32,673 nt of DNA, taken from positions 1 to 32,673 of IMG/VR virus record IMGVR_UViG_3300021389_000087; one strand, written 5' to 3'. The notes under the pieces were generated by a model. That model was given only the letters and a program-made list of their open reading frames with translations. It made no database searches and was not told where the DNA came from. Shown here in pieces: positions 2,774 to 19,008 of the stretch (the stretch's first letter is position 1; each line of letters begins with the position of its first letter). The position numbers and the translations under genes were made by a program. Source of the DNA: a virus.

Positions 2774-3065
2774 TTTATTAAAAGAAAGACTTGAAGAAAT
2801 AAAAAAAGTTAGACAGGAAGCTAAAAAAAACAAACTGTTAACAATGGATTTACACAAAATAAACAACATCTACAACAGATATTATGCATCTATTGAGATA
2901 CTAAATAGGTCTACAGATGTTAGTTTTGTAAATAAAGGTATTGTATATAAAGATGTTAAAGACATATTAGTTTCTCAAGAAAACGAGATTCAAAACCTTA
3001 AAAGAAAAGTTGGTAAATTAAGGTATGACTTATCTAAAATTAAAAACGCTGACACAATAATGTAA
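2757..3065 (+). CDS. 102-aa coiled-coil protein
   Basis: A highly charged, helical protein. The N-terminus shows heptad spacing (L-L-K-E-R-L-E-E-I-K-K-V) and the C-terminus a second coiled coil (N-E-I-Q-N-L-K-R-K-V-G-K-L-R-Y-D-L). Between them lies a segment with N-N-I-Y-N-R-Y-Y. No signal, membrane or enzyme motif is visible. It starts within the 50-aa frame and ends 2 bases before the next gene. It is likely a small oligomeric accessory protein; no family recognised. Confidence 0.75.
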   Translation: MTEPIDLLKERLEEIKKVRQEAKKNKLLTMDLHKINNIYNRYYASIEILNRSTDVSFVNKGIVYKDVKDILVSQENEIQNLKRKVGKLRYDLSKIKNADTIM

Positions 3066-3067
3066 AT

Positions 3068-3256
3068 ATGATCATAAGTCCGTTAGATGAACAACGAGTA
3101 AAATACATAAACCATCTAATGGATAATATACATGACCAGTCAAGTGAGATATATGAAAGCCTTATAGATAAAGATTTTAATAAGGCAGAGGACAACATCA
3201 ATCAACTTATTTCAACCTTAGAAAATATAAAATCTTCTTTTAAAGACGAGATTTAG
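3068..3256 (+). CDS. 62-aa acidic helical hypothetical protein
   Basis: Last gene of the + strand module, ending in TAG 82 bases before the terminator stem. The sequence is two amphipathic helices (Q-R-V-K-Y-I-N-H-L-M-D-N-I and A-E-D-N-I-N-Q-L-I-S-T-L-E-N-I) joined by a charged turn. It resembles small phage helical proteins in general composition only. No function can be assigned. Confidence 0.7.
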   Translation: MIISPLDEQRVKYINHLMDNIHDQSSEIYESLIDKDFNKAEDNINQLISTLENIKSSFKDEI

Positions 3257-3338
3257 AAAAATTTTAGTATATTTGTCTTAATCAATTCTGTTTGGTTTAT
3301 GTAACTTTCTAATTGTTTACAAAAACTGGTTAATAGCG

Positions 3339-3366
3339 AAAGAGCCTCTTAATTGAGGCTTTTTTT
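3339..3366 (+). terminator. Intrinsic terminator between convergent operons
   Basis: AGCCTC (3343-3348) pairs with GAGGCT (3355-3360). The stem extends outwards by a G-T wobble and three A-T pairs, and six T residues follow at 3361-3366. It is a good + strand terminator. Read on the - strand the stem is followed only by CTCTTT, so termination of the virion operon here would be weaker. The - strand 49-aa gene stops within the T tract at 3365, so the signal is probably shared by both operons. Confidence 0.85.
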
Positions 3367-3514
3367 ATTTATTTTTTCTTTTCTTTCTCCGTTTCTTAGA
3401 TAGCTTAGACTTTTTAAATCCATCTGTTGCATAGTAAAGCTTTACTTGTTTGTCAGTAAACACTCTACCACTTGGACTTACATTTCTATTTCTACCTACT
3501 TTTTTAAATGGCAT
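3365..3514 (-). CDS. 49-aa very basic small phage protein
   Basis: Start ATG at 3514, two bases after the stop of the giant gene; TAA at 3365-3367. The product begins M-P-F-K-K-V-G-R-N-R-N-V-S-P-S-G-R-V-F-T and ends in a Lys/Arg tail (S-K-K-R-R-K-K-R-K-N-K). The middle contains V-K-L-Y-Y-A-T-D-G-F. The Ser-Pro-Ser-Gly turn, tight spacing and last-in-operon position support a real gene. The basic tail suggests nucleic-acid contact, for example a minor packaged protein, but this is inference. Confidence 0.7.
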   Translation of the reverse strand: MPFKKVGRNRNVSPSGRVFTDKQVKLYYATDGFKKSKLSKKRRKKRKNK

Positions 3515-3516
3515 AC

Positions 3517-6500
3517 TTAAAATATTTTACTTGAACTCTTTGATTTTCTTCTATTTGAAGGTCCAAAAATCCTGCTATTTTTTGGTATAGACCTTTGTTC
3601 TTTAGCCTTCTTTTTATCGTACTCTTCATTTAACTCTTGTATAGTTTTTATTTTTTTAGGTCTACCTCCCTTTCCTGGACCTTCTATTTGATACTTCGAG
3701 AAGTTTAATAATCTTAAAATATCTTTACCAATATCTCCATCCTTACCTATGTTTCCATAGTTCTCTACAAACTTGGCAATAGTTGGAGCAGGAACACTTG
3801 TAAATGTAGCAAGCTCTAAATATGCTTTTTGATAAGCCTCAGCTTTTTTTGCAGGGTCTTTTAATTTTGCTGCATACGCAAACTTTTCAGTTAAAGAAGC
3901 TGCAATGGATAATAACCCTACGGTTTTTACGTTATTACCTGCCCATGGCTTACCAGTAAATAAGTCTCCTGCCATTTGAAATAAATCTCCTACAATAAAT
4001 AACGCATTTAAGTTTCCAATCATAGCTGCCCTTAACAAATCTAACTTATCATCATCCCTCTCATCTCTAAGTATTCCTGGTAGTCCCATTGATACGTATT
4101 GGAAAAACACAGGCATGATAACATGATACATAAAAAATGTTCTAAGGTTTTGAGCCACTGTGCCTTTACCTGCCTTACGATCAAACTGTGATAGTTTTCT
4201 GTTTAGGTTTCTAATAGCCACAATCTCCTTTCTTAGATACTGTTTAGGTGTAGTCAAGAACATATTAAGACCTCTATATAAAGGGTCTTTAGTCTGATAG
4301 TAATCTTTATCCTGAAGGTCACCAGACTGTTGTGTTCTTTTAGTGTCTCTTTCAAATAACTTTACGGCATAATCTATTGCCTCCTGCTCTGTTGCTCCTG
4401 GATTCTTCTTTTTAAATTGTGCCTTGTAGTACGAATAGTTTGGCATACCTCCAAGAAAAATTGCAGACTTGTCACCAAACTTAGTTGTCCACATCGCAAA
4501 GTTAACTATCCAGTCCTTTGTACCTGCAGGCACAAATTTTTTCATATTAGCATCAGAATATGTCTCAATGGCTCTCATAATACTGGTACGCTGCCTATCC
4601 TTCATGTAGACCGAGTTGTCTCTGATCTCTTTATAAACCTTCAGCATTTCAACCTTGTTCTTCGCAGCATACTTTAAGTAGTTTAAAGGACCTATGTCAT
4701 TAGCATATGTTATGAAAGACGTTAACTGCTTAATCATAATAACAGGACTTATAGCTAACCTTGATAGTATGAACACGTTATTCATTGCGTTTACAATTGT
4801 ATTATTTCTAGAGTCAGAAGTGCCTCTAGAAGCAATTTTATCAATAATTGCTAACGTATACTTATATACATCTTTACCATGAATCTTAGTTATTGCATCG
4901 GATATATATTTATTGTTAAACAACTTAGACATATCCCTAACAACCTCTCCATAGGCAGCAAAGTATTCCATCTGGTTTAGGTATGTGTTTAATACATCCA
5001 TCATATCCATACTCTTTATAGCCTTATTACTATTCTCCCTAACCTTTGTTCCTGATGCTCCTACTGCAGTAGAGTAAATGTTTCTTGCGTTTTGAAGGTC
5101 TAATATGGATGCTTCTTCCTGGTCAACACCTTCCCTATAAATTGTTCCTGCGTAGAATTCATTCCAGGGTAAGTCAGTTCTGTAAAGTTTCTTATACGCA
5201 TCGTTATAGTGATTGTATAGAAATGGATATAGTTCATTAACCTGCCAGTCAGCAGTTTCTTTTACCTTTGGGTCAAGTAAGGCAATCATCTCACTCATTA
5301 CTCTTTCGGCATTCTCTTCATTTAGAGCCTGAATAGCCTCCCTTTCTGCCTTAGTTGCATCTTTTGGAATGGTTTTTATTCCATACATTTCAGGATTAGC
5401 AAAAGACTTTCTATTTGCAGGGTCTTTATACATATTGTATAAGTAAGCAATTTGATTCTGAGACTTAGGTGATAGTGGTACACCATCTTGAATCATTATA
5501 CCTGTATCTTTTGCAAGTCTATTTTGTCTTGATTGTTTCTTCCAATTTTTACCATATAATCCTTTTAAGTGTTCTTGAATCAACTGCTCAACAAGCATCA
5601 TTCTTCCCTTAAATAACCTAGTTGCCTCGTCTACTCTTTCTGTAAACATTTCCTGAAGGTTTCCTCCATACATTTCTCCAGGCAACTTATCTAGTCGGTC
5701 CATTAAAGAAAATAAATCTTCAGCAGAACCAAAGAAGTTTCTATCTATGCCCTCTCTCAATGATCTTAAAAATCTTTTTATTACATTCTGAGTGTCTCTC
5801 TTAGCTTTTTCGTTTTCAAAAATCTTTTTTATTTTATTCAACTCATCAAAAGCATCAGGTTCATTCATGTCAATTTTATTGCCTGTAATAGCTTCGTATC
5901 CTAACTCAAATTGTTGTAAATAGTATAAGTGTTGTTCTCTAATTTGTTCTTTTAACTGAGACCTACCATCCTCAATCATTTCCTTTAATGTTTGAACAAT
6001 CTGGTCTAACTGTTCTACCTTAGTTTCGTTTGTGTCTTCAAGTTGAAGGGTATTGATATACATCATAGCCAACTCTAAGTCAACCATCTCACTTCTAGTG
6101 TCTTCAGTTTGATTAACCTCTGCAGCTAGTTCATTGAATCTATTTTGTAAATTTACTAAAGCATCACCTATCTGTGCAGGAGTTGCCTTGTCATTTAAAA
6201 TTATAGAGTTTATAAAGTCAATTCTTTTTCTAATATCGTCAGATATTTTTACTGGCTTTTTTCTTCCAGATTCTACCTTTGAATACTTTTTGTTTAGTAT
6301 TAATTTTATCTGTGCCTGAAGAGATTTTACATTTGTTTTGTTTACAAACTCAATAACCTCCTTCATTAAATTCTCAATGTTACCTGCATTAACATCATTA
6401 ACTTTATTCACTAAATCAATAGCATCCTTCTTAGTATACAATGCTTTAGGAAGCGACTGACGAATAAAGTTTCTCAGTGCAGTCTTCTGCTTCTGCAGGT

Positions 6501-9500
6501 CTCTAGCACCCTTTACTTTTTGTCTAACGGCAGCCATAGCCTTACGAATCTTAGCACCCATATTGTTAGTAGGTCTTACTCCTGCAGTCTTAGTATAGTC
6601 TGCTAACATTCTGGCTTGTTGCGTAGAGAAACCTTTTCTAACACGAGTCTCCTGTGTACCCTTCTTCTTGCTACCTACAGTATACTTGTCACCCTCGTTG
6701 ATATACTCAGGTTGTTTCTGTAGGTACTCAATAGTTTTATCTACTATCTGTGTGCTAGTTAGCTTCTTGTTACCCTTTAATTTATCATTCTTTTTTACAA
6801 GCTTTTTTCTATAGGCTTCGACTCTATTGTATAGTTTAGTCCCTGCCTTGATGCCGCCCTTAATATTTGTAAAACTCTTAGGCACTACTTCTAAGAAGTC
6901 TTTATCAAGGTTCATTAGTTCATCTACCTCTTTAGCTGATCTATTCAACACACGTACTAAAAAGTCCCTTATATTAGACTCTTTGAAGTTGGCTTGCCTG
7001 CCTTCGTTTATAATCTGCTGAGTAGACTTCTGCTCACGACCCTTTGGTCTAGATAAATTTTTCTTAATTATATTATTTTGTGTTAAAAACAACCCACCAG
7101 TAGAAGCTTTTTTAACACTATAATTTCCTGGAACAGATTCTACCTCTCTTTTAAGGTATGTAAGATCAGGTGCAGGTTTAGCATTAAAGTATCCATCATT
7201 ACCATAGTAGTAACTGTCAGCTATGTCGTAAATTGTTTTTTCTTTTTTAGGTTTAGTCTGAACCTCTTGATTTACAGCGTAATCTTTAAGCTTAAAAAAT
7301 GCATTGTCTTTAATCTCTAAATACCTACCCTCAATACTAGGAGTGGTTACGACTTTTACGTTTTGATATGGTATAGGCTTTGCTGACCTTACATAGTCAT
7401 CAGCACCAATCATAAACAGGTCCATATCCTTATCTACCTTTATAGCCATCACCACACCCTCAACACCTTCAGGTAAATAATTAAATGCAGTGCTTGCGTT
7501 TGGAGCTAAGTTGATTCCTTCTTTTTCCGAGATAGTTCCTCTAAGGTCTGTATCAATAAATCTTGTGCTTAGAATTCTATAAAAGTCAGCTTTTGACACC
7601 CCTCTAAATAGATATCCATCAGCATCCACTTCAAAAATACCTCCTAGGTCTTTGTCTTCTTTTATTTTTTTACCTTTTTTTACAGTACCTTCTCTTGGAT
7701 AAAACTCATTACCAACCTCCTTCATAAAAGGCTTGTTTAGGTCGTTTAATTTCTCAGCTAACTTTACTCTTTCATAATACACAGGAACTAAACCTTCTTT
7801 TAATAACTCAAGAGTTTTTAGTTCATCTTTTAATGCTTGGTAGTTATCAAAGAATTTTTCTGTATAAGCCTCCTTACCTGCCTTATCTTTTTCAAACTCC
7901 ATTACAGACTCGGCTTCAATCCTAACCTTTAGTTCATCTATCTGCTGATCCAAGTCAGCAGGTATAGTAACAGGAATTTTTGATTCACGACCCTTTACTT
8001 CAGGTAACTTAAGCATACTCTGCTTTGTAGTAAAGTCCTTGTTTATGCCTTTGTTTTCTACAAACCCTAATCCTTTATAGAAGCCTTTCAGTCTGTCAAT
8101 AGATGTAGCTCCATAGCTTGTACTAGGAGTCAATGCTATTGTTAGTCCCTTCTTATTAGCAAAGTCTATAACCTCCCTCATAACATTGCTTCCCACTCCA
8201 GTGTTTCTCTGGTCTTCTGTAACAATAATCTTATCTAACTCCAAAAAGTCTTTGTTCTGGTATAGGTCTAGTGTAACATCATACTTATTTTCTAAGTTAG
8301 ATTCTAATTCTGATACACTTTTCTGCTCACGAGACTGAGGAGGTGCTACTATATTACCACTAGCTTTTGATAACTTAGCAGTTCTACCATACTGACTTAA
8401 AGCCATTTCTGTTGATGGGTGTTTTTCAGAATATTCCTTCCATGAAAAAACTTTTCCTGATGATTGAGTTAGTTCAGGATACGTTGTGTCTATATTATAT
8501 GCTCCATCTAAAAAGAAAACTTCTATTTCTTGGTCTGAAAATATTTCTGCAGGATATGACTTATGGTAAAATTCATCTGACTTAGGAGTAACCTTTGTTG
8601 ATAAAGTTCCCTTTGTTCTCATTAGCATTACTATATCCCAAAGCTTAGTTGCCTTCTTAGTTTTTTCTTCTTCAAACTTAGATGCTACTTCTGATATAGA
8701 ACCTGCCGTTGGAAACTTTCTGTCTTCAGTAACTTTAGGGTCTCCTAATATAGCCTTTATAATTGCCTTTCTTTTCTCAAACGAAAGTGTTGTATCATCT
8801 CCTAATAACACTTTGTTTAACTTGGTAATCATAGTCTCTATGTTGTCAGACTTTTTTATATTTAAGTCCGACTCAGTTAATCTTACAGATTTTAATGAAA
8901 GAGCTTTAGTCAGGTATTCACTAAATAACTTCTTAGTAACCTTACTAGACTTTGATCTTAAATCAAACTTCATAAACTCCCACACAGTCTCAAACATGTC
9001 TTGGTTACTCATGTGAGAGTTCGGCTTCATTATGATTGGTGTTGCATAAATATAACCATCCTTGTCTCTATTAGCATTCATATTTTCAGCTATACTAGTA
9101 GCTTTAGAGATAGTTCTAGATGCCCACCACTTACCTGTTATTTGAGGGAAGTATATCCCACCAAAGAATTTAAATACAGGATTATTTTTAGCGTCAGCTA
9201 TAAAAGCTCCTGTCATTCTATCGGACTCAAGTAGATTGGATTTTTTTTGATTGAAGTTACTTAAAGGAGTATCTTCAGACAACTTTATATTTGGATTAGT
9301 AGGAAACCTTTTTAAAGTAAAGCTTGTTAAAACAGACTTTGATTCCCTTGGTGACGCATTAATAACCCCACTAACACTACCATTTAATATAGCAACATCC
9401 TGTTTTGCTTGGGCATCAAAGTCTGTTCTTAAGGCTAACCCACTTCCTGAGTATAATTTTGTATTGTAACCATACCAGTCAGACCTTTTTAGTTTTCCGT

Positions 9501-12500
9501 TTTTACCAGAAGGTTTTGCCGTAACAGATCCTGCATCATAAAAACCAATGGTTATATTATCTTGACTTACTCCAGTTACATTAGAGAAATCTTTTAAACC
9601 ATCAATCATGTTGTTAACACTACCTGAAAAATCTTTTACAAAAACTTCACCGTTAGATGTTTCAGCTATAAAAATTCCTGCAGCTCCTGAAAATTTAGAA
9701 TATTTTTTTCTCGTGGTGTATATAACGCTATTTATAATATCACCTGATTTTGTGACTAAAGTTTTAGACTTACCTGCACCTCTAATTCTTTTATACTGAC
9801 TAGCCTTTAAGTCTATATTTTTTTCTTTATTCCATGCAATTTCAGATGACTTATATTGAACTAAGTTTTGTATAACTGCATCATTGTTATTAATATCACC
9901 TTTCTTTTTGTAAACAACATTTACCTGTCCGTTATCTAACTTAGTAAATACAGGGAAGTAAGTTTCATTAGACGCATTTTTCCAACTCCCTCTTGATTTA
10001 AACCATTTTGACTGCCTAAGCAGCTCCGTTTGGTCGGCATCATAAATATCTTTAAAATCTTTTGGTCTATTGTCTAGTATAAAGAAATGTGCAACCGCTG
10101 ATCCGTCAATAATTTTAGGTGCACTTTGGTTTCCTTTCGTTGGGATAGGCTCATAGTTTTGCCCAACATCATTGTTGTGGTAACTTGAATGTACTGACAG
10201 TGTGCCTTTATTGTCTCTACTTTCTTTTTCAGTGGAATGTATTTCTGACTCTGGTAGTGTTACCACTTCCTGTACAGGAGCTACTGTTTCTATAACAATT
10301 TCAGCAACATCGTTTTCCACAACATCAATCAAACCATACTTATGTAATCCTTTTTCTAAGTAAGATGGAAATGCTTTTACATTGTCTTCTAAATACGAAA
10401 TAGCTTGATTAGAAATATTAGCGTCAATATTAAAAGAAGATATTAAAACCAATGCTACAAGTGTTGCTTTTTTAAAGTCTCTAACAAACTTAGTTATCTT
10501 GTCTTTTAGCAGCCTACTCTTCTCTACTATTTTGTTTGTTTTGCCTTCTATATAGCTATTAATTGCTGTAGAAACAAATAAACTAATATCATTTAATGTG
10601 TCTCCAACCTCAGCTATTACAGTCTTATATTTTTCTTTGTTTTTTAAAATTTCTAAAGCAATTCTGTTAGCCTCTTTTTTAATATTTGTAACCTCTTCAA
10701 CTTCTTCTACTGCATTTTCTTGTTCAGCCTTTGATTCAATTAAAACTATTTCCTCTGCTTCTTGTTCAGCCTTTTTTATTTGGCTTAGTATTTCAACATC
10801 CTCCTCAGTTATCTCCTCGCCTGTTACAGTCTTAGTGGCTAGTACATTTATAAGGTCAATAACACTCTGGTCATCCTTACCAAACTCACTACCTAATTTA
10901 ATACCAAACTTCTTAGCTATCTTTTTTAAGAACTCAACAATGGCATACTTAGCAGGAGCTTTTAGTTGCTTATATTTTTTAAACTCTTGGCTTGACATCA
11001 ATCCTATAAGCTCTGCAATAAACTCCTCTTCTCGAAACTGTTCCTGGTCACCAGTATACAACTTAGTGAAGGCATCAATTTCCTTGTAAAGCTTACTGTT
11101 TTTAGATAAGGTCTTTTTAACAGACTCAACCATTTTTATAGCCATCGCCCTTGCCTTAGCATCAGTCTTTAATTTATTTAAAAACACTGCATGAAATACC
11201 TCGTGTGGCACAGTACTTAACCTAGCGTTGGTTAAGTCGATATGTATGGTGTCTGTCGTAGTATCATAATAACCACTACTTGTTTTACCAGTATACTTAA
11301 AGTACTCTGACTTGCTTTCGTGTAAAACAATTTTTGTTTCATCAAGCAACTTAGCAATAGACCTAGCACTAGCCTTTGCTATCTTAATTATTCTTGGCTT
11401 TAATTTATTTACTTTTTCAGGCTTGCCCTCTTTGTTTATGGTTAAGTTAGGAGAAATACTCTCACCCAACTCATCTTTAAAAAACTCTTTAATATCTTCT
11501 TGTTCTTCTTGAGTTTCCTTATCTGTTTTCTTCTCAGAAATTTTTCTTTTTCTAACTAAGAGGGATTTTTCTACTTTAACTAATTCTTTTAATAATTTAA
11601 ACTGTTCTTCAATTTCATCTTTGACTTTTTGTTTTGGTTTTCCTCTTAAAGACTCTTGTTTTTTCTCAAGAGCTTCAATTTTTCTTACTATAACAAGTTC
11701 TTCTTTTTTATTTTTTTCTATCTCAGCATCTATCTCGGCTTCAGTCATTGTTTCCTCTTCCTCTACAACAGGACTCTCAAGTTCTTCCTCTACCTCAGCT
11801 TCAGGATCTGCTTTTACTTCTGCTTTTGGAGCAGTTTTTACAGGAATTTTATCAAACTTTTTATAGCTCTCTATCTTTTGTTTTGCCTCTTCAATTTGAT
11901 TATCTATATCAGTGGTATCTACTTCAGAACTATTGGTGTTTAAATTATTAGCATAGTCACTAAATTCTTTAAAAGACATGTCCATTACATCCTTGATCTT
12001 AACAGTAGAACCATTTACTAATTCTAAATCTGCATTTAAAAGATTTTTGTAATTTTCAGGAAGTGATGACTTTTTAAAGATATTTAATCTGTTTAATATT
12101 CTTTTTTGTCCTGATATATTTGCAATAGTTTTTATTCTTTGCTCAATTTTTTGAACTACATTTAATGAGGTTTCATCTTTTACTTTTATGTTCCCTGGTT
12201 TCTTCCTATTATTTAATTCAAATTGTTTTTTATCTTCTAAAGCTTCTATTTTATTGTACTCTTCTAAAACCTCTTCAAGAATTTTTATTCGTTCTTTAAT
12301 AAATTTGAAACCTGAAAAAGGGTCTTTTTTTAATTCTTCTATTTTTTTCTCTACAGCATCTTTGCTATATAAATCGTTTTTTATTGATAGTCTATTTTTA
12401 GTTTTCTCGTCAAGCAAAGAGGATAGATATTTTTCTCTTTCAACTTGCCTTTTTACTTCACCCTCATCACCCTTTTTTTCTGCTTTATTTCTAGCTACAT

Positions 12501-17569: not shown

Positions 17570-18556
17570 TTAATATAATCCTATGCCTTGATTTATGAGA
17601 TTTATTTGACCAGGAGTCATACCTTTCAAGTATGTTTGTAATTCTTCAGGTGTCATCATTGAAATATCTTGCATACTAAATTCTTGACCCATCAATTCTC
17701 CATCTGTACTAAAACCTGCCTTGTTTATTCTGTTTATCATACCCTCATCAAAAGATGAAAGTTGTTTTTTCTGAAGGTTAGCTAATGCTAAGTCTTTTCT
17801 ATTTACATTTGTAGTTTCAATATCAAATGGTAAAAAACTTGTAGGATTACTAGAATCACTAAGACCTGTTATGGTTGGTGCAGTAGCATTTCTATATCCT
17901 GTCCCTATTCCTAAGAAACCTTTTCCTTTTCCTGCACCTTGCATATAACTAGCTTTATCAGTTCTTACTGCCTGCCTCTGTGCTTTTGCTTGTGCTCTCG
18001 CTGCAGGACTCTTTGAAAACAATGGTGCTGCCTCTGCTGCTTGTGCTCCAAAAGCTGCTAACTGTTGAAATCCTTGTGTCTGTGCTGCTGCTGCTGCTTG
18101 TCCTGCATCTGATGCTGCCATCTGTGCTCCTGCAACCTCGCCTAAATCTAATTGAATACCAACATCACGAAGCCTTGATTCCTCTGCTGCTGCTGCCCTA
18201 TCTAATGCAGTCATCTCTCTACCCATTGCAGTACGAATGCCTTGCTGCCCTTTTTGTTGTGCTAGTTGTATTCTACCAACACCTGCTGCTGCTCCACGTT
18301 CAGACTCTCTTGCTGCCTCAACACCTTGTGCTCCTGCAACCAGTAAAGCCTCACGTTCAAGTTCGTAAGGTTCTTTCTGTATGCCTAATGCATCCAAGTA
18401 GTTTACCTCAAGTTTTTTTCTAGCTGCTGCCATTGCCCTAGCTGCCTCACGTTCTGCTTTTTCCTGAGCCTTACGTTGTTGACCTGCCTGAGCAAATGAC
18501 ATACCTGTTCCTATTGCCGATAATCCTAAACCAATTGCCGTAGCTATTCCTGCCAT
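17570..18556 (-). CDS. Ala-rich internal virion protein (T7 gp14-like)
   Basis: A 328-aa protein starting with a glycine/alanine-rich hydrophobic segment (residues 2-22, G-I-A-T-A-I-G-L-G-L-S-A-I-G). A long Ala/Gln/Glu/Arg-rich coiled helix follows to about residue 200, then a Gly/Ser-rich region and a compact C-terminus ending in M-T-P-E-E-L-Q. This N-terminal hydrophobic plus Ala-rich helix plan is that of T7 gp14-like internal virion protein B, which inserts in the outer membrane during ejection. Its start overlaps the cupin stop by 13 bases. The direct link to the two larger internal-protein genes supports an ejectosome role. Confidence 0.75.
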   Translation of the reverse strand: MAGIATAIGLGLSAIGTGMSFAQAGQQRKAQEKAEREAARAMAAARKKLEVNYLDALGIQKEPYELEREALLVAGAQGVEAARESERGAAAGVGRIQLAQQKGQQGIRTAMGREMTALDRAAAAEESRLRDVGIQLDLGEVAGAQMAASDAGQAAAAAQTQGFQQLAAFGAQAAEAAPLFSKSPAARAQAKAQRQAVRTDKASYMQGAGKGKGFLGIGTGYRNATAPTITGLSDSSNPTSFLPFDIETTNVNRKDLALANLQKKQLSSFDEGMINRINKAGFSTDGELMGQEFSMQDISMMTPEELQTYLKGMTPGQINLINQGIGLY

Positions 18557-19008
18557 AATTTTTCTTTTTTATTATATTCTTCCATTGTCATTGAAAAAAA
18601 ATTATCTTCTATTGCTTTCATATCTTTAGTGTCAGATGGATTAGCTATTACATTTATCCAAACACAATCCTCTAGACATTTAATTAATCTTTTAGTTCCC
18701 TTCAAAGAGTATGACCAACAAGGAGCTATATGTTCTACAATTTCATTTTCATTTTCTACTACAACTTTTCCAGACAATAAGAACCAAAAATGATTTGTAT
18801 GGTGTATGGCACTTATTACTATAGTACCTGCTTTCATTTTCATCTGACGCATATATAATCCATCAGTAAAGTTGTTTGTTATTGGAAACTCTTCATTGTT
18901 AACTAAATTTTTACCATCTCCATATGTCCCTTCTGCATTACTTTCTATAATTACATTTTGTAATCCTTCTAATTTTTTTATAAAATTAACTGATAACTCA
19001 CTATTCAT
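18544..19008 (-). CDS. Cupin-fold protein in the tail module
   Basis: A 154-aa single-domain cupin. The core motif is K-A-G-T-I-V-I-S-A-I-H-H-T-N-H-F-W-F-L-L, then S-G-K-V, matching the H-x(3)-H, then aromatic, then G pattern of cupin motif 1 (residues about 66-88). Motif 2 is degenerate, around P-C-W-S-Y and T-K-R-L-I-K. The canonical motif-1 glutamate is absent, so metal binding by the usual 3-His/1-Glu set is uncertain. It lies between a receptor-type tail protein and the internal proteins, where other marine podophages also carry small cupins. It may be structural or modify a sugar or small molecule. Its stop overlaps the 328-aa start by 13 bases. Confidence 0.7.
   Translation of the reverse strand: MNSELSVNFIKKLEGLQNVIIESNAEGTYGDGKNLVNNEEFPITNNFTDGLYMRQMKMKAGTIVISAIHHTNHFWFLLSGKVVVENENEIVEHIAPCWSYSLKGTKRLIKCLEDCVWINVIANPSDTKDMKAIEDNFFSMTMEEYNKKEKLWQE

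Follow-up and report, generated by a model that had tools for sequence, protein, structure and literature searches.

The window analysed here is a 32,673-base virus record, from a marine phage, in which the open frame of a giant protein sits downstream of the structural genes (Table 1). Related giant proteins are labelled 'structural protein' in the Flavobacterium elemo phages and in Tenacibaculum phage Gundel_1. Polyvalent proteins are recognised by at least two domains of a known repertoire within one phage protein, and two such domains, a GNAT and a zincin-like domain, were found in the giant protein of the window. Within the explanation that we favour, it is a multi-part ('polyvalent') virion protein, which is probably packaged and ejected into the host together with the DNA. 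A small gene amid the structural genes (18544-19008, minus strand) matches the PHROGs short tail fibre and tail fibre adhesin families at 1.5e-19.

Table 1. Features of the giant protein and its neighbour in the window. Relatives are given by their L numbers.
Feature	Position	Strand	Remarks
Giant protein, 4082 residues	3517..15765	-	open frame; putative polyvalent-type ejection protein
Zincin-type metallopeptidase domain, residues 1424-1660	10786..11496	-	HEVFH at 11191-11205
Residues 1661-2120	9406..10785	-	free of R-E-(Q/S)-K sites; Pfam, no family above cut-off
Tag 1, RESK at R2140	9337..9348	-	homologous border in L094 is ERKQ
Cassette between tags 1 and 2, residues 2144-2478	8332..9336	-	72% identity in L094; best segment in L099 78%
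Tag 2, REQK at R2479	8320..8331	-	cassette-end border is TRKQ in L094, TREQR in L099
GNAT acetyltransferase module, residues 2483-2592	7990..8319	-	Pfam match; 74% identity in L013/L014; AlphaFold2 core pLDDT ~90
Tag 3, RESK at R2593	7978..7989	-	corresponding border in L233 is GREQS
Module after tag 3, residues 2597-2823	7297..7977	-	61% identity over 219 residues to an L164 unit with APRQQ tags on both sides; no Pfam family
Small module before tag 4, residues 2827-2909	7039..7287	-	BLAST match of window 2827-4041 to L233 1717-3026
Tag 4, REQK at R2910	7027..7038	-	adjoins start of C-terminal module
Conserved C-terminal module, residues 2914-4082	3520..7026	-	scan of viral contigs with profile A6: 110 relatives, of which 80 kept
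Neighbouring internal virion protein (T7 gp14-like, weak)	17570..18556	-	PHROG 805, 6.1e-5; Pfam T7_gp14, 0.0072, below cut-off

Pfam does not recognise the zincin domain in the window. On alignment of 39 zincin sequences (A7), H98, E99, H102 and the later E157, E158 and E162 were observed to be invariant; the HExxH motif and the downstream glutamate that mark a zincin are both present, and the fold is middling but consistent. The AlphaFold2 model (pLDDT 75.8) consists of a helix, three strands and the HExxH helix. When this model was compared using VIA-align, the first 40 rows were zinc metallopeptidases (Pro-Pro endopeptidases, collagenases and a toxin catalytic domain), the best being the Pro-Pro endopeptidase PPEP-2 with a Z of 7.2, a value below 8 being no proof, over 150 residues at an rmsd of 4.2 A. 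Foldseek against the PDB gave a best E of 0.27, with IrrE as the first match, and against viral models its best matches were other phage giant proteins (E 3.5e-14).

The original prediction was that four near-copies of R-E-(Q/S)-K separate the middle of the giant protein into one-domain pieces, including a GNAT-like unit of 114 residues. RESK, REQK, RESK and REQK were indeed found at residues 2140, 2479, 2593 and 2910, against an expectation of 0.17 such sites; shuffled sequences carried 0.18 on average, and none of 2000 shuffles reached four. Since this pattern was picked post hoc, after the data had been seen, and since other repeated patterns outscored it in an exact and gapped k-mer scan of the protein, the window by itself is suggestive, and it is the relatives that supply the proof. 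The 114-residue unit is a GNAT domain, as seen from a match to Pfam Acetyltransf_7 (3.7e-4, below the curated cut-off), from homologues in other phage giant proteins, from the family alignment and from a confident model core. The division into one-domain pieces is roughly true, except that the third piece (2593-2910) contains two units. A Pfam scan of the window's own middle units placed no family above cut-off on residues 1661-2120 or 2597-2823. In an AlphaFold2 model of residues 2125-2960, whose overall confidence is low (58.5), all four tags lie in coil and not inside folded domains, within or bordering stretches with a pLDDT below 50. That the motif might be part of the GNAT family was also considered and rejected, as the GNAT homologues of other phages diverge beyond an ending '...REPK'.

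Relatives were collected with pieces of the protein. Searches of a phage collection matched the zincin region in the Flavobacterium elemo phages and the GNAT domain in proteobacterial and other phages; for the C-terminus, an environmental podovirus was matched besides Tenacibaculum phage Gundel_1. The window pieces 2130-2490, 2580-2915 and 1880-2139 gave no match in this collection. Profile scans of viral contigs returned 227 relatives of the GNAT domain, 186 of the zincin and 110 of the C-terminal module (C-module), 80 being kept in each case, and three loci for the cassette 2145-2475. When the C-terminal part was used by itself in an exact-peptide scan of viral contigs, no relative was found. 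The 171 giant ORFs obtained were reduced to 101 non-redundant proteins, window included, by dropping any ORF that was covered over more than 60% of its length at 88% identity or above by a longer one, or that had 500 residues or fewer; the GNAT set was set aside as a control. A C-module search of genome contigs gave two MAG contigs only (L262 and L263), binned as Aliivibrio and Pseudomonadales. Since cultured relatives infect Flavobacteriia, these two may be mis-binned phage contigs.

Recurrence at domain borders, with differing domains between the copies, had been put forward as the check on the original prediction, and its outcome among related giant proteins was positive. Using a single clean definition, we observed 221 sites in 85 of the 101 non-redundant proteins; L161 has 10 listed sites, L164 has 8 and L239 has 7. 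Among cultured phages, protein P0004 of a Flavobacterium elemo phage has one tag, NTRQQK at residue 2079. In the relatives RQQK occurs 35 times against 1.1 expected and GREQ 25 times against 1.7, and among 74 proteins of the HE.FH type the middle region holds 83 R[EQK]Q[KR] tags, with 2.3 expected. The motif as first described was too narrow, the core being [RK]-x-Q, mostly R-(Q/E)-Q-K. From 118 de-duplicated junction sites we derived the consensus (G/P)-R-(Q/E)-Q-(K/R), in which positions 0 to +2, and partly +3, are fixed by the search pattern itself; the flanks show P or R at -3 and G or P at -1. False positives in the site list comprise 13 hits in an N-terminal helix '..LLRQQEL..' (upstream cluster 3), which were omitted from the codon and consensus analyses, and basic C-terminal tails such as KRQQKERR.

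The tags are concentrated between the zincin and the C-module. Of 242 hits, a figure that includes double counts and falls to 221 after cleaning, 67 were unplaced; the remainder, in 59 proteins, divide into 132 tags over 38,798 residues between the two modules, 25 over 54,741 residues upstream of the zincin, a further 4 just before it, and 14 over 68,584 residues of the C-module. The sites are most numerous in the middle, even though both other large regions are longer. Clustering of flanks of about 70 residues gave 64 upstream and 62 downstream clusters, which combine into 100 distinct pairs: the zincin tail (38 sites) precedes 12 downstream kinds. The largest downstream cluster, with 51 sites, is the start of the C-module and comes after 13 upstream kinds. 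The tag belongs to no single unit. Ends of local homology lie within 8 residues of a tag in 51 of 178 cases, compared with 16.5 expected and a maximum of 29 over 200 random placements. The strict motif is absent from 45 of 82 zincin tails, and many show variants such as KQQK, GKEQK or RQRK. Elsewhere in these proteins, a conserved N-terminal 'YDPREQG' is present at residues 99-145 of L137, L142, L230, L233, L239, L243 and L251, far from the zincin; it could be a further tag, releasing an N-terminal piece. In L230 (1136), L239 (1076) and L251 (1062), R-(K/Q)-Q-K stands directly before the zincin domain (NLSINRKQK), and therefore the zincin itself may have tags on both sides.

Units of the middle have been exchanged between phages. 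In L094 the stretch 2123-2481 shows 72% identity to the window, as against 36% for the zincin. After this cassette, L094 has TRKQ and then a different helical-looking unit, and L099 (78% in the best segment) has TREQR and yet another unit; around the shared cassette, identity of the L094 and L099 proteins is 25-38%. The GNAT domain of the window is 74% identical in L013/L014 and 73% in L015; L233, on the contig of L015, has 23-35% identity outside the GNAT, and GREQL precedes its GNAT as the counterpart of tag 2. L164 has a counterpart of the unit that follows R2593, with 61% identity over 219 residues, whereas its N-terminal part is 28-29% identical to the window. From these identities, three units of the window have their closest relatives, among those found, in three different phages, each beside a tag. 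The counterpart of the small module in L233 is flanked by its own tags (GREQS 1734 and GRQQA 1808). The stretch shared with L094 begins about 20 residues ahead of the tag, in the zincin tail, so that exchange does not occur exactly at the tag in every case.

Between tags, the relatives carry ART-PolyVal (46.5 bits; cut-off 31.2) and Methyltransf_23 (39.1 bits; cut-off 27). A Pfam search of 20 of their units gave any match at E of 0.01 or below for 6, several of these being below the curated cut-offs. Residues 1548-1754 of L184, between two RQQK tags, are a methyltransferase (Pfam Methyltransf_23, 8.2e-10), and a search with this region found matches in Roseobacter, Pelagibacter and Mycobacterium phages. 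Residues 1633-1833 of L223, between EKAQ tags, match the Mycobacterium phage L5 gene 82 protein (Pfam 4.1e-9).

A domain resembling a protease and a repeated border motif are found in one chain, the activity of the former being presumed, and the two were observed to occur together. In 65 proteins with zincin and C-module we counted 114 tags against 10.3 expected, and in 14 with zincin, scored as lacking the C-module, 18 against 1.9, while 17 other GNAT-bearing giant proteins without this zincin were at chance level (9 against 9.6). Since enrichment is seen under both classes of C-terminus and chance level without this zincin, the zincin is favoured as the partner of the tag. Counting against this link, 3 tags against 0.3 expected were observed in three members of the C-module family in which this zincin was scored as absent. 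In seven proteins that do have the zincin (L172, L174, L175, L179, L181, L097 and L098) no border tag of the R type was found, EKxQ sites number one at most, and no other tag is clear.

In one clade the tag has changed as a set. The middle of L220, L221, L223, L227, L228, L229 and L232 is devoid of the R-tag and carries E-K-x-Q 29 times against 0.63 expected, and these seven proteins form one clade of the zincin tree with a support of 100 (L228 is shown as 'none' on the tree because the length limit excluded three of its four sites). At the starts of shared modules the tag is E-type in 25 of 25 cases within the clade; outside it, 96 of 128 are R-type, none is E-type and 32 are of other kinds. 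The Fisher value for this comparison ignores kinship, there being one switch observed at many borders. Shared units bear the tag type of the lineage in which they reside. The feature common to the R and E forms is [RK]-x-Q-[KR]. A third form was found in L252, with R-K-N-K-x-Q at three of four RKNK sites and RKNKVSN at the fourth. L229 has E-tags but HEIFH in place of HEVMH. As the switch is a single event on the tree, zincin and lineage are inseparable by it.

We propose that the tags are cleavage sites for self-processing by the embedded zincin, and we put the probability of this at roughly 0.55, the cutting itself being what we infer. The middle of the protein would then be a string of interchangeable effector-like units joined by short unstructured connectors, the units of the window being one of unassigned role, a GNAT acetyltransferase and two more, to which the relatives would add a methyltransferase and an ADP-ribosyltransferase. 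The connector, with a core of [RK]-x-Q that takes the form (G/P)-R-(Q/E)-Q-(K/R) in the lineage of the window, would most likely be the site at which the zincin upstream in the same chain binds and cuts, and the chain would be divided into separate units either in the maturing head or after injection. Since all units carry the same tag, those from other phages could be plugged in and still be released. The original prediction offered the sites either as processing sites or as seams of swapped cassettes; the former is the better account of a tag that is kept at the protein level and switches as a set. The observation behind that prediction is confirmed in part, and its interpretation partly supported. 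Against self-processing, the next tag downstream of the zincin in the window is only at R2140, the fold matches of the domain to zincins are middling, and Pfam fails to identify it; the zincin-bearing proteins that lack a clear tag speak in the same direction.

The main caution is that the zincin-bearing protein of phage N4 is reported to be packaged uncut (Iyer 2017, PMC5512222). This agrees with another reading, that the tags stay uncut and act as docking or unfolding signals in linkers, serving, for instance, a chaperone, a scaffold or the passage through the tail. A crassvirus study proposes that partly unfolded cargo proteins are ejected, and a motif bound by a lineage-specific partner would likewise switch as a set. 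Such signals fail to explain why the series of tags ends at the C-module, why so few occur upstream of the zincin, and why they track the zincin family; we regard this reading as unlikely, and as a serious rival to self-processing all the same. Equally serious, though a little more doubtful, is cutting of the tags by some other protease, of the host or of phage head maturation. Cutting of internal head proteins at a short motif by a separate head protease is well known, as with gp245 of SPN3US (PMC10052503), and the 32.7-kb record is perhaps a fragment, so that a gene of this kind could lie outside it. The tags, however, track the zincin family and are at chance level in the 17 giant proteins without it, and 13 of the 14 sites mapped in SPN3US remove N-terminal propeptides, whereas the tags described here lie at internal borders.

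The tags might also be seams and nothing else, short stretches of homology where cassettes recombine, with descent rather than a function in the protein as the reason for their retention. Units are clearly exchanged with tags at their ends, and the idea of conserved seams is right as to where exchange occurs. As a DNA seam it fails, since the codons of the tags are ordinary: at 184 junction sites they follow the usage of each gene (AGA 112 against 114.1 expected, AAA 65 against 65.7), although CGT (40 against 23 expected) and CAG are mildly over-represented. Within genes, codon identity between copies is slightly high over 40 genes (238 of 391 against 208 expected, reached in 14 of 1000 draws). 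Without L161 and L164, whose tags look recently copied, it is 189 of 321 against 178.5 expected, reached in 173 of 1000 draws. A similarity of two copies at the DNA level beyond codon use had also been noted and was not confirmed: when synonymous codons were drawn at random, 11.5% and 9.5% of draws matched the longest common runs, of 12 and 11 bases. Nucleotide conservation beyond the need of the protein was not seen, and we rejected a DNA seam as the main cause of conservation; the ordinary codons point to selection on the peptide. With the L094 cassette starting ahead of the tag and shared units carrying the tag of the resident lineage, we consider seams alone highly improbable. Chance, by which four look-alike tetrapeptides would arise in a long lysine- and glutamate-rich protein, agrees with the degenerate motif not being the top repeated pattern of the window, but is already refuted by the relatives through the RQQK and GREQ counts, the placement, the flanks and the switch.

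There is also a wider and more tentative idea, which we consider possible rather than probable. Tailed phages would have a true polyprotein system, in which the built-in site-specific metallopeptidase of a giant ejection protein frees injected effector units at lineage-specific tags; the tag would be a connector code for trading units, protease and tags would co-evolve (RQQK-type, EKAQK-type and perhaps the RKNKxQ-type of L252), and other polyvalent families would carry codes of their own (DIPTFS, LFSSAS, RFMxE, KFSKG, LGTPA). Every polyvalent family may have its own border tag. GNAT-bearing giants of other families contain repeats at ORF residues 1092-1748 of L034, 1267-3684 of L068, 2035-2538 of L051, 2378-3295 of L047 and 458-773 of L050; the repeated patterns are DxPTF(S) and LFSSAS (five times each), RFMxE (four) and KFSKG and LGTPA (three each), several of which flank a GNAT.

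How phages use polyvalent giant proteins, whole or in many parts, has been a matter of proposal since 2017. With a border tag come exact testable sites and a prediction of the released products, and cutting giant proteins at their tags would give a rule for finding new injected effector units. A peptidase with a target sequence readable from its own gene would in addition be useful for protease-specificity studies.

The polyproteins of RNA viruses are single chains with the protease inside and repeated short border sites. The system proposed here differs in belonging to a DNA phage, in its metallopeptidase, in the exchange of its units between phages, and in that its cleavage is presumed. Iyer 2017 (PMC5512222) likens polyvalent proteins to viral polyproteins, and proposed that peptidase domains release domains of these proteins by self-processing. 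The proteins treated there share with ours the very large multi-domain build, the embedded zincin and the GNAT-, ADP-ribosyltransferase- and methyltransferase-like units, but the passages on them describe no border tag, consensus or clade switch. In SPN3US (PMC10052503), likewise, a short motif is present and is cut in internal head and ejection proteins; there the protease is encoded by a separate gene, whereas here mid-chain tags and peptidase are in the same chain. The N4 virion RNA polymerase (PMC12633501) resembles the giant protein in its length of about 3500 residues, in being ejected and in the HExxH of its C1 domain (2124-2375), but differs in being reported as packaged unprocessed (PMC5512222). 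We found no description of such a border tag in the open-licence literature, as judged by titles and the beginnings of abstracts. Relative to the passages of Iyer 2017 (PMC5512222) on that proposal, what is added is a specific border site, its maintenance by selection on the peptide, and its concerted change in a clade.
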